Part shown: positions 50,116 through 55,418 of the stretch, piece after piece | Numbering within the stretch: the stretch's first letter is position 1 | Layout: each line of letters starts with the position of its first letter | Source: Acidobacteriota bacterium | GTDB taxonomy: Bacteria > Acidobacteriota > Vicinamibacteria > Vicinamibacterales > UBA2999 | DNA: 64,000 nucleotides | Reading direction: 5' to 3' | Assembly: GCA_021730945.1 (NCBI GenBank) | Contig: JAKFYH010000012.1 | Location: 1 to 64,000, forward strand | Notes under the pieces: generated by a model | What the model saw: only the letters and a program-made list of their open reading frames with translations | What the model was told of the DNA's origin: nothing | The model's database searches: none | Program-made: the position numbers and the translations under genes

Positions 50116-50137
50116 GGGCGCCGTTCACGGGGCGCCC
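50116..50137. terminator. possible bidirectional hairpin between convergent genes
   Basis: GGGCGCC and GGCGCCC form a 7-bp GC stem with an 8-nt loop between the VOC gene and the convergent response-regulator gene. There is no U-tract, so termination is uncertain. Confidence 0.35.
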
Positions 50138-50829
50138 GTCGACTCGCCGGCGAACCGGTAGCCGACCCAGGGCTCGGTAATCACGAAGCGCGGGCGGCCG
50201 GGGTCGGGTTCGATCTTCTTCCGCAATTGCCCAACGAGCACCCGCAGGTGCTCCTGCCCGCTGCCGCCCGAGTTGCCCCACAAGCTCTTGATGATCGCCC
50301 GATGGGTGAGCACGCGCCCGTCGTGGGACGCGAGGAGCGTCAGAAGTTCAAGCTCCTTCGGCGTCAGCTTGATCTCCGCCTCGCCGCGGCGCACCGACCG
50401 ACGGTCGAAGTCGATCGACAAGTCGCCCCGTTCGAGCCGGCCGTGCATTTCCTGCCCGCGGCCGGCCGATCGCCTCAGACTGGCGCGCACCCGCGCCAGC
50501 AACTCTTCGGGGCCGTAGGGCTTGGTGATGTAATCATCCGCGCCCGCATCGAGCGCCTCGACCTTGACGCGTTCCTCGCCTCTGACCGAGACGACCAGAA
50601 TGGGCACGTCGGCCCGCTCACGCAGGCGCCGACAGACGATGGTGCCGTCCATATCGGGCAGACCCAAGTCGAGAATCACGAGCCCCGGCCGGTCGCGATC
50701 GAAGAGGCTGATCGCCTCCGCGCCGGTTCCGGCCACGGTCACGGCGTAGCCTCGCGATCGAAGCAGGGTCGCCGCCGCCCGTTGAATCGACGGGTCATCG
50801 TCGACGAGTAACAGCACCAGGGGACTCAT
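50125..50829 (-). CDS. KdpE-like OmpR-family response regulator
   Basis: A 234-residue DNA-binding regulator. The receiver (1-120) has LLVDDDPSIQR, phospho-Asp in VILDLGLPDMDG, and ADDYITKPYGPEEL. The winged-helix domain (about 135-230) has KLTPKELELLTLLASHDGRVLTH, LWGNSGGSGQEHLRVLVGQLRKKIE and GYRF. The pattern is closest to KdpE. Its ATG overlaps the stop of the kinase gene (ATGA). No kdpFABC genes are adjacent; the nearest potassium gene is the divergent permease. Confidence 0.88.
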   Translation of the reverse strand: MSPLVLLLVDDDPSIQRAAATLLRSRGYAVTVAGTGAEAISLFDRDRPGLVILDLGLPDMDGTIVCRRLRERADVPILVVSVRGEERVKVEALDAGADDYITKPYGPEELLARVRASLRRSAGRGQEMHGRLERGDLSIDFDRRSVRRGEAEIKLTPKELELLTLLASHDGRVLTHRAIIKSLWGNSGGSGQEHLRVLVGQLRKKIEPDPGRPRFVITEPWVGYRFAGESTGAP

Positions 50830-51824
50830 GACGCCGCCCCCACCGCGGCGCTGTCGCGGGCGCGCACCGGTACGCGGATGGTGAAGATGGCGCCACCGTC
50901 CGGGTGATTGGCCGCCGTCACCTGGCCGCCCTGGATGGCGATCAGCCCGCGGGCAATGGCCAGGCCGAGGCCGCTGCCGAACCGGTTCTGCGTGGTCGCG
51001 CCCCGGTAAAAGCGATCAAACACGCGCTCGAGATCTTCAGGCGGCACGCCTGGGCCGTGATCGCGGACCGCGATCTCCAGCATGCCCGGCTCGAGCCGCG
51101 CACGGATCGCGATCGGGCCGTCGGCAGGAGAGTAGGCGGCGGCGTTCTCGAGCAAATGCGCCAGCGCCGCCGACGTCAGTCGCGGCTCCAGTTGGATCAG
51201 CTTTTCCCCGGCCTCGTCGGACACGGCCATGGAGCGCGACTGCAGCGTGCCCTCGGCCTGGTGACGCGCCGCGGCGACCAGGTCGGCCGCCTCGACCCAC
51301 TCGAGTTCGGTGTGCATGGCGCCGGTCTCGACGCTGGCCATGTCAACGACATTGTCGAACAGACGCTTGAGGCGCGCGAGTTCGGCTCGCACGATCTGCG
51401 CCTGCTCGGCGCGCTCGCTCTCGGGGAGATCGGGATTGGCGAGGTTCCCGGTGGCGACCGTCAACGCCGTGAGCGGCGTCTTGAGATCGTGGCTGAGCGA
51501 GGCCACCAGCGCGGAGCGCGCTTCGGCGCCCTTGCGGGCCAGCTCGGCCTGGTTGCGCTGCTGCGCCAGCGCCAGTGCCTCCTGGGCGCGGCGCCTGGCA
51601 ACATGCGACAACTGGCTGCCGATCACACCGACCGCCAGCAACACGAACAACGCAATCAGGTCGTCCTGGCTGGCAATGGCAAAGGTCCCCACCGGTGGCA
51701 GGAAAAAGAAGTTGAAGCCGGCGAATGCGAGCAGCGCGGCAACAATGGCGCCTCCCCGGCTGCTCACCGCGGCGACGGCGAGCACTGCCAACAGAAGCAA
51801 CAACGCGGCCGTCGTTTCGTTCAT
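50826..51824 (-). CDS. KdpD-like sensor histidine kinase lacking the KdpD/USP sensor half
   Basis: A 332-residue membrane kinase matching only the C-terminal half of KdpD (about 900 residues in Escherichia coli). It contains a DUF4118 membrane region (1-95; AALLLLLAVLAVAAVSS, LLAFAGFNFFFLPPVG), HisKA with LSHDLKTPLTALTV, and HATPase motifs HLLENAAAYSP, DHGPGVPPEDLERVFDRFYRG and GSGLGLAIARGL. The cytoplasmic KdpD and universal-stress domains are absent. The ATG at 51824 is chosen because translation further upstream would run into the riboswitch region. Confidence 0.85.
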   Translation of the reverse strand: MNETTAALLLLLAVLAVAAVSSRGGAIVAALLAFAGFNFFFLPPVGTFAIASQDDLIALFVLLAVGVIGSQLSHVARRRAQEALALAQQRNQAELARKGAEARSALVASLSHDLKTPLTALTVATGNLANPDLPESERAEQAQIVRAELARLKRLFDNVVDMASVETGAMHTELEWVEAADLVAAARHQAEGTLQSRSMAVSDEAGEKLIQLEPRLTSAALAHLLENAAAYSPADGPIAIRARLEPGMLEIAVRDHGPGVPPEDLERVFDRFYRGATTQNRFGSGLGLAIARGLIAIQGGQVTAANHPDGGAIFTIRVPVRARDSAAVGAAS

Positions 51825-51881: not shown

Positions 51882-51916
51882 TCTTTCGGGGCTACAACAG
51901 GAACAGCAGCCTAATT

Positions 51917-52040
51917 CGCGCCGCCATGGCGCGATACGGGGGACCCAATGGGACGCATGGCGCGTCCCCGGGGCGAATCCGGTCGGCGTGACCGGTAGAG
52001 GACTCCAACCTCGAGCCCGCCAGCTAACCCCGTCGGCGTC
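51917..52040 (+). ncRNA. c-di-AMP riboswitch (ydaO/yuaA type)
   Basis: The conserved blocks occur in order: CGGGGGACCCAAT, CGGGGCGAATCCGG, CCGGTAGAGGACTCC, CTCGAGCCCGCCAGC and AGCTAACCCCGTCGGCG. The ends pair as P1 (CGCCG at 51919-51923 with CGGCG at 52034-52038). The class binds cyclic di-AMP and typically turns off potassium uptake or cell-wall genes. It sits 10 nt before the GTG of a KimA-like permease, with the ribosome-binding site GGAGG just after P1, so translational control is plausible. Confidence 0.88.
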
Positions 52041-52050
52041 TGGAGGAACC

Positions 52051-55011
52051 GTGTTCGAAGAGTCATTCCTGTCGCAGGTGAGGCGGCTGATCGTTGGCGC
52101 TCGCATTCCGTCGCATCTCGCGCACCGCGAGCGCTTTTCCAGGGTCACCGGCCTGGCCGTGTTGTCATCGGATCCGCTGTCGTCGGTGGCCTACGCGACC
52201 GAGGAAATTCTGCGCGTCCTGACCATGGGCGGCATTGCCGCGCTGAGCCTGGTCACGCCGATTGGCGCGATCATCGCCGCCATGCTGGCGGTGGTGGTGT
52301 TTTCCTACCGGCAGACGATTCACGCATACCCGAATGGCGGCGGCGCCTACATGGTCGCCAAGGAGAATCTCGGTCGCATGCCCAGCCTGATCGCAGCGGC
52401 GGCACTGCTGATCGATTACGTGCTCACCGTCGCCGTCAGCATTGCCGCGGGGGTCGCGGCCATCACCTCGGCCGTGCCCGCCTGGCACCTGAACACGGTG
52501 GAAGTCTCGCTGGCCTTCGTGGCCCTGCTGACCATCGGCAACCTGCGCGGCGTCCGCGAGTCGGGACGGTTGTTTGCGGCGCCCACCTACTTCTTCATCG
52601 TCAGCATTCTCGCCATGCTCGGTGTCGGCGCGTGGCGCTACCTGGCGGGGAGCCTGGTGCCGATGCCGCTGCCGGCGGATGCGTTGCCCCTGGGGTCGGG
52701 CGGGGTCGATGCGCTGGGGCTGTTCGTGATCCTGACCGCGTTCTCGAACGGCTGCACCGCCATGACCGGGGTCGAAGCGGTCTCGAACGGGGTGCCGGCG
52801 TTCCGCCCACCCGAGAGCCGCAATGCCGCCGCCACGCTGGTCGCCATGGCGGTGATGTCGATCACCATGTTCATGGGGATTACGCTGCTGGCCCACGCAT
52901 ACGGGATCATCCCCAGTGCCACCGAGACGGTGGTGTCGCAGATCGCGCGCGGGACGTTCGGCGCCGGCAGCCCCCTTTACTATTCAGTCCAGGCGGCGAC
53001 CATGCTGATCCTGGTGCTGGCGGCGAATACCGCCTACGCTGATTTCCCCCGGCTGGCCTCGATCGTCGCGCGCGATGGCTTCCTGCCTCGGCAGTTCATG
53101 AACCAGGGCGACCGGCTCGCGTTCTCGAATGGCATCGTCATTCTGAGCGTCCTGGCGGGCCTGTTGCTGGTGGTGTTCGGCGGCGACACCCACTCGCTGA
53201 TCCCGTTGTACATGATTGGCGTATTCGTGTCGTTCACGCTGTCGCAGTCGGGCATGGTGGTGCACTGGTGGCGGCTGCGGACGAGCGGCTGGCGCAGCAG
53301 TGCGGCCATCAACGGCTTTGGCGCGATCGTGACCGGAATCGTGCTGCTGATCGTGGCGACGACCAAGGCGTTTGAGGGCGCGTGGATTGTGCTGGTGATG
53401 ATTCCGACCCTGGTCATGATCTTCACGGTGACCCGGCGTCATTACGACCACGTGGCCACCGAACTGACACTGCAGGACTGGCACCAGGAACCGGCCGGGC
53501 ACCACACGGTCATCGTGCCGATTGGCGGCATCCAGCGGGCCGTCGTCAAGGCGCTGCAATACGCGTGCACCCTGTCGGCCGACGTCCGGGCGGTCTATGT
53601 CGACATCGATCCGGCGGCCACGGCGAGCCTGCGGCAACAGTGGGATCGGTGGGGGCACGGGGTGGAGCTCGTCGTGCTGCCGTCGCCGTACCGGTCGTTG
53701 ATGGAGCCGCTGCTTGGCTATCTCGACCAGGTGCAGGCAGCCAGCCCGAACGGCTATCTCACCGTGATTCTGCCGGAGTTCATGCCGCGGCGTCTCTGGC
53801 ATCACTTGCTCCACAACCAGCACGCGTTGCTGATCAAGGGCGCGCTGCTGTTCAAGCCGAACGTGATCGTGACCAGCGTGCCGTTCCACCTGGGACGGCG
53901 GGCGGGAACCGCGGCGGTGGTGGCGCTCCTGGTTCTCGGTTCTGCAGCTGCTGCGTCGGCCGAACAAGCCCAACCCTCGGAGTCGTCGTGGCAGTGGGGC
54001 GGCTTTGCCGATGTCGGCGCGTTGTTCGACCTGGCCGATCCCGAGAACACCGTGTTTCGTGGTCGCGGCACCACCTGGCACCTCGGCCAGCCACACTTGA
54101 ACATGGCCGCCGTCGCGGTGAAGCGCAAGCCCTCACCGCTCTCACGCTGGGGCACCGAACTGTTGGCGCAGGCCGGCAAGGACAGCGAACTGTTTGCACT
54201 CTCGGCGACGGCGCCCAGTCTCGCGGGACACGAGTGGCTGCGACATGTCGGGCTGGCCAACGTCTCGTATCTCGCGCCGGCCGGCCACGGGCTGACGATT
54301 CAAGCCGGAATCTTCGCCAGCCTGATTGGCTACGATTCCCTGTATGCCAGGGACAACGCCAGCTACACGCGGCCCTGGAGCGCCGATTTCACGCCGTTCC
54401 TCATGATGGGCGTGAATGCCGCTTACCCGTTGTCGCCGCGGCTCACACTCACGGGTGCGGTGACGAATGGGTATTGGCACCTCGCCCACGCCAACAACGT
54501 CCCGAACGGCTCTGCTCAACTGGCCTTTCAGATTTCGCCCCAACTACTGCTCAAGGAGACGATCCTGGCCGGGCCGCATCAGGCCGCCACGTCGCCGTCG
54601 CGCTGGCGCTTTCTCTCTGACACGGTGGTCGAACGCCGCACTGAACGGGCAGTGGCGGCATTGGAATGGCAGGTGGCCACCGAGCGAATCGACTCGCCGG
54701 CCGGCGACCGGGCGTGGTGGCTCGCCGCGCAGGCGCCCATGCAGTGGATACCGTCTGAGCGGTGGAGCATGGCCCTGCGCCCCGAACTGGCCTGGGATTC
54801 CCAGGGCCGCTGGACGCTGGCTCGTCAGACCGTGATCGCCCTCACCACCACGCTGCAATATCGCGCCTCGTTTCCTCGAGCGGGCGCACAGCTCAGACTT
54901 GAGCACCGGGTCGATGTCTCGCGCGGGCCTGACGGCGGTTTTTTTCGCGGTGACGCCGGACGCAAGGCCACGCAGCACCTGCTGGTCCTGGCGTTGATCG
55001 CCAGCGTGTAA
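52051..55011 (+). CDS. KimA-like APC potassium permease fused in frame to an outer-membrane porin
   Basis: One 986-residue open frame. Residues 1-614 form an APC-superfamily permease (GLAVLSSDPLSSVAYATEEI, YPNGGGAYMVAKENLG, TAFSNGCTAMTGVEAVSNG) with about 12 helices and a C-terminal cytoplasmic domain that ends, as usual for the family, at NVIVTSVPFHL. The frame then continues without a stop into a second export signal (about 615-636; GRRAGTAAVVALLVLGSAAA) and a beta-barrel of about 350 residues (WQWGGFADVGALFDLADP) like OmpL/BBP2 porins. It begins at GTG with GGAGG 4 nt upstream. Internal initiation near GTG 53878 would separate the two parts. Confidence 0.8.
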   Translation: MFEESFLSQVRRLIVGARIPSHLAHRERFSRVTGLAVLSSDPLSSVAYATEEILRVLTMGGIAALSLVTPIGAIIAAMLAVVVFSYRQTIHAYPNGGGAYMVAKENLGRMPSLIAAAALLIDYVLTVAVSIAAGVAAITSAVPAWHLNTVEVSLAFVALLTIGNLRGVRESGRLFAAPTYFFIVSILAMLGVGAWRYLAGSLVPMPLPADALPLGSGGVDALGLFVILTAFSNGCTAMTGVEAVSNGVPAFRPPESRNAAATLVAMAVMSITMFMGITLLAHAYGIIPSATETVVSQIARGTFGAGSPLYYSVQAATMLILVLAANTAYADFPRLASIVARDGFLPRQFMNQGDRLAFSNGIVILSVLAGLLLVVFGGDTHSLIPLYMIGVFVSFTLSQSGMVVHWWRLRTSGWRSSAAINGFGAIVTGIVLLIVATTKAFEGAWIVLVMIPTLVMIFTVTRRHYDHVATELTLQDWHQEPAGHHTVIVPIGGIQRAVVKALQYACTLSADVRAVYVDIDPAATASLRQQWDRWGHGVELVVLPSPYRSLMEPLLGYLDQVQAASPNGYLTVILPEFMPRRLWHHLLHNQHALLIKGALLFKPNVIVTSVPFHLGRRAGTAAVVALLVLGSAAAASAEQAQPSESSWQWGGFADVGALFDLADPENTVFRGRGTTWHLGQPHLNMAAVAVKRKPSPLSRWGTELLAQAGKDSELFALSATAPSLAGHEWLRHVGLANVSYLAPAGHGLTIQAGIFASLIGYDSLYARDNASYTRPWSADFTPFLMMGVNAAYPLSPRLTLTGAVTNGYWHLAHANNVPNGSAQLAFQISPQLLLKETILAGPHQAATSPSRWRFLSDTVVERRTERAVAALEWQVATERIDSPAGDRAWWLAAQAPMQWIPSERWSMALRPELAWDSQGRWTLARQTVIALTTTLQYRASFPRAGAQLRLEHRVDVSRGPDGGFFRGDAGRKATQHLLVLALIASV

Positions 55012-55142: not shown

Positions 55143-55219
55143 GCGCCCGTAGCTCAGTTGGATAGAGCACCGACCTTCTAAGTCGGGGGTCCCAGGTTCG
55201 ATCCCTGGCGGGCGCGCCA
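55143..55219 (+). tRNA. tRNA-Arg (anticodon TCT)
   Basis: Acceptor GCGCCCG/CGGGCGC, D arm GCTC...GAGC, anticodon stem CCGAC/GTCGG with loop CTTCTAA (TCT, codon AGA), T arm CCAGG/CCTGG with loop TTCGATC, encoded CCA. The last 20 nt recur twice downstream at exact 100-nt steps. Confidence 0.96.
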
Positions 55220-55418
55220 ATTCACTTCGTGACTTGGCTGCTCCCGCCAGGGCTCGGGTTCAAGCCGCTCCTTCGCTAACGCTCGGAGCGAGCCAGTGCG
55301 ATCCCTGGCGGGCGCGCCACCTCGCTTTGCGACGTCGGCGCTCCCGCCAGAGCTCGGGTTCAAGCCGCTCCTTCGCTAACGCTCGGAGCGAGCCAGTGCG
55401 ATCCCTGGCGGGCGCGCA
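55220..55418. repeat. two 100-nt tandem units carrying the tRNA-Arg 3' end
   Basis: GATCCCTGGCGGGCGCGCCA (the tRNA 3' end) recurs at 55300-55319 and, shortened by one C, at 55400-55418. Each unit also carries CTCCCGCCAG(G/A)GCTCGGG, the complement of the T-arm side, and a hairpin GCTCC...GGAGC. The first 20 nt of the units are less alike. No integrase or cargo lies between copies. Confidence 0.8.

Follow-up and report, generated by a model that had tools for sequence, protein, structure and literature searches.

The inner-membrane step of potassium uptake has been well studied, and when K+ is scarce its passage across the outer membrane is commonly attributed to general porins. A polyprotein that is cleaved at an internal signal sequence is known from FbcH, the cytochrome b/c1 precursor, both products of which remain in one inner-membrane complex. 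The gene name and the b/c1 product are given in the excerpted text of PMC12456017.

The described importer nearest to the locus considered here is KimA (YdaO) of Bacillus subtilis, a K+/H+ symporter of the KUP family (6s3k, 8b70, 8b71). According to the excerpted text of PMC10284832, kimA of B. subtilis is repressed by c-di-AMP via ydaO, the K+ site of the protein comprises D36, Y43, T230, and Y377, and its c-di-AMP pocket involves R337, Q581, and S582, with the amide groups of Q581 and S582 being named. A porin of the BBP2 family occurs downstream of kdpABC in Leptospirillum, as reported in an excerpt of PMC7231039.

Here, we describe a locus in which an importer and a porin of these two families are joined. 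The window, a stretch of 64,000 nucleotides from an Acidobacteriota bacterium (contig JAKFYH010000012.1, assembly GCA_021730945.1), contains one open reading frame on the forward strand at 52051-55011, which runs for 986 codons from a GTG at 52051 to a TAA at 55009-55011 with no internal stop, as an earlier, sequence-only reading had claimed. This frame holds, in order, a full-length KimA-type K+ importer, a predicted internal signal peptide, and a BBP2 beta-barrel porin. The importer-porin fusion is real in the assembly, derived, and so far a single case. The window porin belongs to the same family as kdp-adjacent BBP2 porins, but its partner is kimA, with which it shares one frame behind a c-di-AMP riboswitch.

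The KimA part and its riboswitch

The KimA part extends over 52051-53961 (+); with the C-terminal tail and the signal peptide inside the frame counted in, it would comprise 637 amino acids if cleaved after A637. Residues 9-614 align to residues 4-605 of B. subtilis KimA (6s3k, 607 amino acids; phmmer E 3.6e-158). The KimA identity proposed in the sequence-only reading thus holds over the full length, and a ydaO riboswitch stands in front of this kimA as it does in front of that of B. subtilis. All four K+-site residues are kept, as D41, Y48, T239, and Y387. Among the c-di-AMP contacts, R337 and Q581 are kept as R347 and Q590, whereas S582 has changed to H591 (all positions hand-counted on the alignment). 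The window protein further differs from that of B. subtilis in that its C-terminus continues into the signal peptide and porin, and the extra helix behind the domain-swapped cytosolic domain may perturb KimA. The same genome carries a second, ordinary riboswitch-led kimA (C3:73619, locus L002), which ends in FHLKQ and a stop, and also encodes a c-di-AMP synthase domain.

The c-di-AMP (ydaO/yuaA) riboswitch aptamer lies at 51898-52053 (+) and matches RF00379 with 62.4 bits against a gathering score of 38, confirming the riboswitch that had been proposed. Its 3' end extends over the GGAGG at 52042-52046 and the start codon of kimA, a GTG. RF00379 was also found ahead of 20 of 35 further KimA loci (9 out of 20 in a set that includes the paralogue L002, and 11 out of 15 in another). 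The window riboswitch would be expected to bind its ligand and control the gene. The final aptamer helix closes a few bases ahead of the GGAGG, and because this gap is too small for a terminator, control is likely to act at the translation start. A switch at the level of translation would act on the first frame only, so a porin situated in the kimA frame would come under it.

Divergent from kimA, the reverse strand encodes a sensor kinase (50826-51824, with an ATG at 51824) and a KdpE-like response regulator (50125-50829; Response_reg and Trans_reg_C). A domain scan of 50829-51821 gave DUF4118, HisKA, and HATPase for the kinase, which is KdpD C-terminal-like, and homologues of the regulator adjoin kimA in three other loci (L052, L053, and L061). 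Downstream of the frame, behind a tRNA-Arg (55143-55219), 55199-55417 contains 2.2 copies of a 100-base unit, which repeat the 3' end of the tRNA and a short palindrome.

The open frame and its junction

Openness alone is weak evidence in this region, because high GC leaves frames open by chance. The stop-to-stop frame around 52051-55011 measures 1248 codons, and frame 2 past the FHL motif near the end of KimA is likewise open for 241 codons. The evidence for a fusion lies in the homology of each half to a known family within one shared frame, and a chance open frame was rejected on this ground. GC3 is coding-like over the entire frame (0.78-0.92).

The sequence-only reading had taken FHL as the normal end of KimA, and relatives agree, stopping shortly after it. 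The KimA C-terminus was read in 36 loci from the same genome and its relatives, of which all but L041 and L048 reach it, with L002 among those that do. In every one of these 34, a stop follows 1-20 codons past FHL; the distance is 1-2 codons in 31 loci and 18-20 codons in the close relatives L003 and L004 (79%) and L020 (74%). One row among the 34, that of L030, re-reads a neighbouring copy already in L015, and L030's own copy ends in FHLKK and a stop. This tandem kimA pair (L015/L030, G002:C90:1997-5725) is 63% and 59% identical to the window's kimA. At L020/L051 (G034:C234), kimA is split at a contig end into two pieces that occupy different frames, and behind it, after one stop, there follows a frame that resembles a Kup importer by motif.

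No other fusion through the junction was found in 162 genomes of the order, 193 of the class, and 396 of a phylum sample, sets that overlap. Scoring covered the top 5, 4, and 2 candidates of each genome, respectively, and a fusion could have been missed. The same fusion in related genomes, which the sequence-only reading had advised looking for, was not seen among these candidates. Porin orthologues do occur in relatives as separate genes, and this, along with the stop after FHL in relatives, makes the fusion derived and rare. The same reading had counted such an arrangement in relatives against the fusion. The arrangement exists, but the fusion in the window still stands, because no frame stops within 68 codons of FHL and the similarity to KimA tails enters the signal peptide.

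The fusion is known from one draft assembly of 67 contigs, and this, together with the uniform endings of the 34 other KimA reads, is what might be expected if a sequence or assembly error concealed a stop between two genes that are truly separate neighbours. We consider such an error improbable. The first stops past FHL in frames 0, 1, and 2 are at 55009, 54098, and 54618, which is 372, 68, and 241 codons away, so no one indel can give a KimA end like that of the relatives, and a single indel at the junction was rejected. A substitution creating a stop past FHL would leave the porin to start at GTG 53917 or 53920, without a charged n-region. A chance chimera is also unlikely, because both genes are potassium-locus genes.

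The DNA itself suggests how the junction was built. In blastn, similarity to L020 (76%) and L003 (74%) over about 217 bases extends past FHL to 53917-53918, which is the start of the hydrophobic core of the porin signal. The charged n-region of that signal therefore apparently comes from the KimA tail. The porin's original start and n-region appear to be gone from the window frame, the arginines being supplied by the KimA C-tail. After FHL, this tail begins with GRRAGT in the window, GLGGRE in L003, GRGGRD in L004, and GRAVEH in L020.

The internal signal peptide, GRRAGTAAVVALLVLGSAAAASA, is placed by hydropathy at 53893-53961 (+). Followed by EQ, it has the charge, the hydrophobic core (Kyte-Doolittle mean over 12 residues as high as 2.5), and the ASA of signal peptides. 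By this pattern, which supports the internal export signal claimed earlier, it is expected to function as one, with a predicted cut after A637. Most of the porin orthologues read have an N-terminal signal peptide with its own start, whereas that of the window porin sits inside a longer frame.

The porin part and its potassium-locus relatives

The mature porin would span 53962-55011 (+) and 349 amino acids. Residues 648-984 match Pfam BBP2 (PF07642) with 136 bits against a gathering cut-off of 26.2, and AlphaFold2 predicts a barrel of 16 strands (hand-counted from the strand list; pLDDT 77.7), of which the first, at residue 647, begins about 10 residues past the cut site. Both results bear out the beta-barrel of about 350 residues that the sequence-only reading had described. 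The nearest folds among PDB matches are OprO (best VIA Z 23.3 over 296 residues, rmsd 3.3) and PorB and OmpF (Z about 21), with OprP also near.

At 58 positions where 24 relatives are invariant, the porin retains 53 of the residues, and the usual FD is missing from the end of its last strand. The five changed residues and the altered C-terminus may mark early decay, as would be the case if the fusion were recent and non-functional, with a working KimA and a porin part that is debris being lost. That the fusion is a single case, and that an ordinary kimA is available elsewhere in the genome, would suit this explanation, which is nevertheless decidedly improbable: the 349 codons of the porin form an unbroken frame, their GC3 is coding-like, and most invariant residues are kept.

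A contig scan with a six-porin alignment yielded 30 loci, whose records bear the titles Acidobacteria or similar names, Nitrospirae/Nitrospira, and in one case Cyanobacteria. By reference proteins, 17 of the 30 have kdpA or a KimA-like gene. Fifteen have kdpA (L065, L068, L071-L074, L076, L078, L080, L082, L085, L087, L090, L092, and L094), and four have a KimA-like gene at 41-70% identity (L071, L075, L090, and L093). Two further loci, L067 and L088, have KdpDE-type regulators only, plus a permease in L067. The reference-protein search gave no potassium gene in 11 of the 30, and ORF starts read by eye in ten of these (not L066) revealed at most a kinase/regulator pair (L069). No riboswitch stands directly ahead of the porin in any of the 30 loci, the sole RF00379 match preceding kimA in L090. 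A KdpA match was not found in the window's own genome. In L080 and L082, two kdpA-like genes flank the porin, one on each side. The record titled Cyanobacteria (L065, JAIEMQ010000025.1) has reference proteins identical to those of G008:C23, from the window's genus, and its label is perhaps wrong.

Two relatives have particularly extended arrangements. In G083 (L090), a riboswitch, kimA, a sensor kinase, a regulator, a domain of about 135 amino acids, the porin, kdpA, kdpB, kdpC, and the N-terminal part of kdpD follow one another in one direction. G092 (L055) likewise has a single direction throughout: riboswitch, kimA, kinase, and regulator come first, then a permease, a lone copy of the small domain, another permease, the small domain joined to the porin, and kdpA. 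The genes of both loci are presumably cotranscribed. Gene neighbourhood thus provides a good argument that the porin serves potassium uptake. It is on this neighbourhood that the potassium path of the sequence-only reading depends. K+ selectivity gains no support from the fold, because OprO and OprP, which are phosphate porins, are among the closest solved structures.

Eight genomes of the class have a porin match of E 1e-50 or better. The porin is in frame with an upstream domain in three (G000, G092, and G098), overlaps one out of frame in G083, stands alone in three (G008, G079, and G166), and is cut off at a contig end in G094. In G092 and G098, the shared frame (L055:1307-2857 (-) and L057:7868-9880 (+)) begins with a domain of about 130 residues that is homologous to a standalone G092 protein (L055:5419-5814) and to the domain of G083, at 33-52% identity and with E values of 1e-20 to 1e-47. 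This domain has no Pfam match above cut-off; we use 'USP' as a working label only and presume a cytosolic place for it from the absent signal. Homology to the cytosolic domain of KimA is not claimed (best blastp E 0.12). In G083, the porin ATG (L090 7914) is inside the last codons of the upstream domain, out of frame, with an overlap of 35 bases (L056/L090). The window is therefore not alone in having a porin that continues from where an upstream gene ends, and the KimA partner is unique so far. The porin frame of 549 codons in G166 was rejected as a further fusion: it has an ordinary ATG and signal, and its upstream part is unrecognisable as a gene. The 17-kb stretch of G166 contains no potassium reference protein besides the porin.

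Proposed synthesis and sorting of the fused product

A mechanism consistent with these observations would begin with a deletion-type fusion that linked the tail of a riboswitch-controlled kimA to the signal-peptide core of a potassium-locus porin. A single ribosome pass from GTG 52051 would then produce KimA, followed by a cleavable thirteenth helix. Because the cytosolic domain of KimA ends on the cytosol side, the stretch of RR, hydrophobic core, and ASA should enter the translocon, and because the tail arginines would remain cytosolic, it would do so as a thirteenth helix. Signal peptidase I would cleave after ASA (A637), so that KimA would keep an additional helix at its C-terminus and the porin would be released to the BAM machinery. 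As the porin lacks a ribosome-binding site and start that are clearly its own, it would be made largely alongside KimA, and its synthesis would be confined to times when a low c-di-AMP level leaves the riboswitch open. We infer the cleavage, the sorting, the co-regulation, and the K+ role of the porin, and tentatively give a fused product that is cleaved into KimA and a co-made, riboswitch-controlled porin a little less than an even chance. Such a product would resemble FbcH in combining a polytopic inner-membrane protein, an internal signal, and an exported second product, but would differ from it in that this second product would reach the outer membrane.

Cleavage, an internal start, and a bridge across the periplasm were the outcomes listed in the sequence-only reading, and as a set of options they were well chosen. 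The bridge, an uncut chain tying importer to pore, would agree with the single frame for both parts, but is extremely unlikely. An AXA site is present, and the roughly 10 residues between it and the first predicted strand are too short for the periplasm. AlphaFold2 of the whole chain (pLDDT 68.9, pTM 0.50, from a shallow alignment, and silent on cleavage) gives two units, the KimA part being separate from the barrel and linked to it by a low-confidence stretch at 612-644.

The main rival to cleavage of a single product is a pair of in-frame overlapping genes, with the porin also or mainly started at GTG 53878-53880 (+) and the long fusion product optional. We regard this as unlikely, although the product of that start (MPFHLGRRAG...) would include a complete signal peptide. 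Relatives offer parallels: the out-of-frame porin ATG of G083 lies within the preceding gene's last codons, and G092 and G098 have candidate in-frame starts at the equivalent place, with purine-rich sequence ahead of them (by eye). By the duplex measure, GTG 53878 has no Shine-Dalgarno sequence (+0.5 kcal/mol, against -9.3 for kimA). GTG 53917 and GTG 53920 reach -6.3 and -4.3 kcal/mol, but the products of either would be without a charged n-region. The measure is weak evidence: of the window's ten presumed gene starts, themselves uncurated, only five reach -5 kcal/mol (one is at +0.6), leaving half without a strong Shine-Dalgarno, whereas the same value is attained by chance at 14 of the 84 start codons that lie internally and in frame. 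Even with an internal start, the long product is expected, because KimA has no stop.

A literature search for KimA together with porin returned matches that are unrelated by title, and we do not claim that the fusion is absent from print. A bolder reading of the single, cleavable product is that it represents a working inner- and outer-membrane polyprotein, with importer and outer-membrane pore serving one ion, made 1:1 from one riboswitch-gated start, and split by signal peptidase, in a porin family whose members repeatedly abandon a separate start and attach themselves to a gene of a potassium locus. The repeated loss is suggested by the two relatives in which the porin is in frame behind another domain, and we hold the reading as a whole to be somewhat unlikely.

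If it is true, c-di-AMP control would reach the outer membrane, and both steps of K+ entry may obey one RNA switch. A chain sorted to two membranes would also be a convenient system in which to examine internal signal peptides. More broadly, a porin that is adjacent to kdp or kimA, and in one instance fused to kimA, would make the outer-membrane step of potassium uptake testable.
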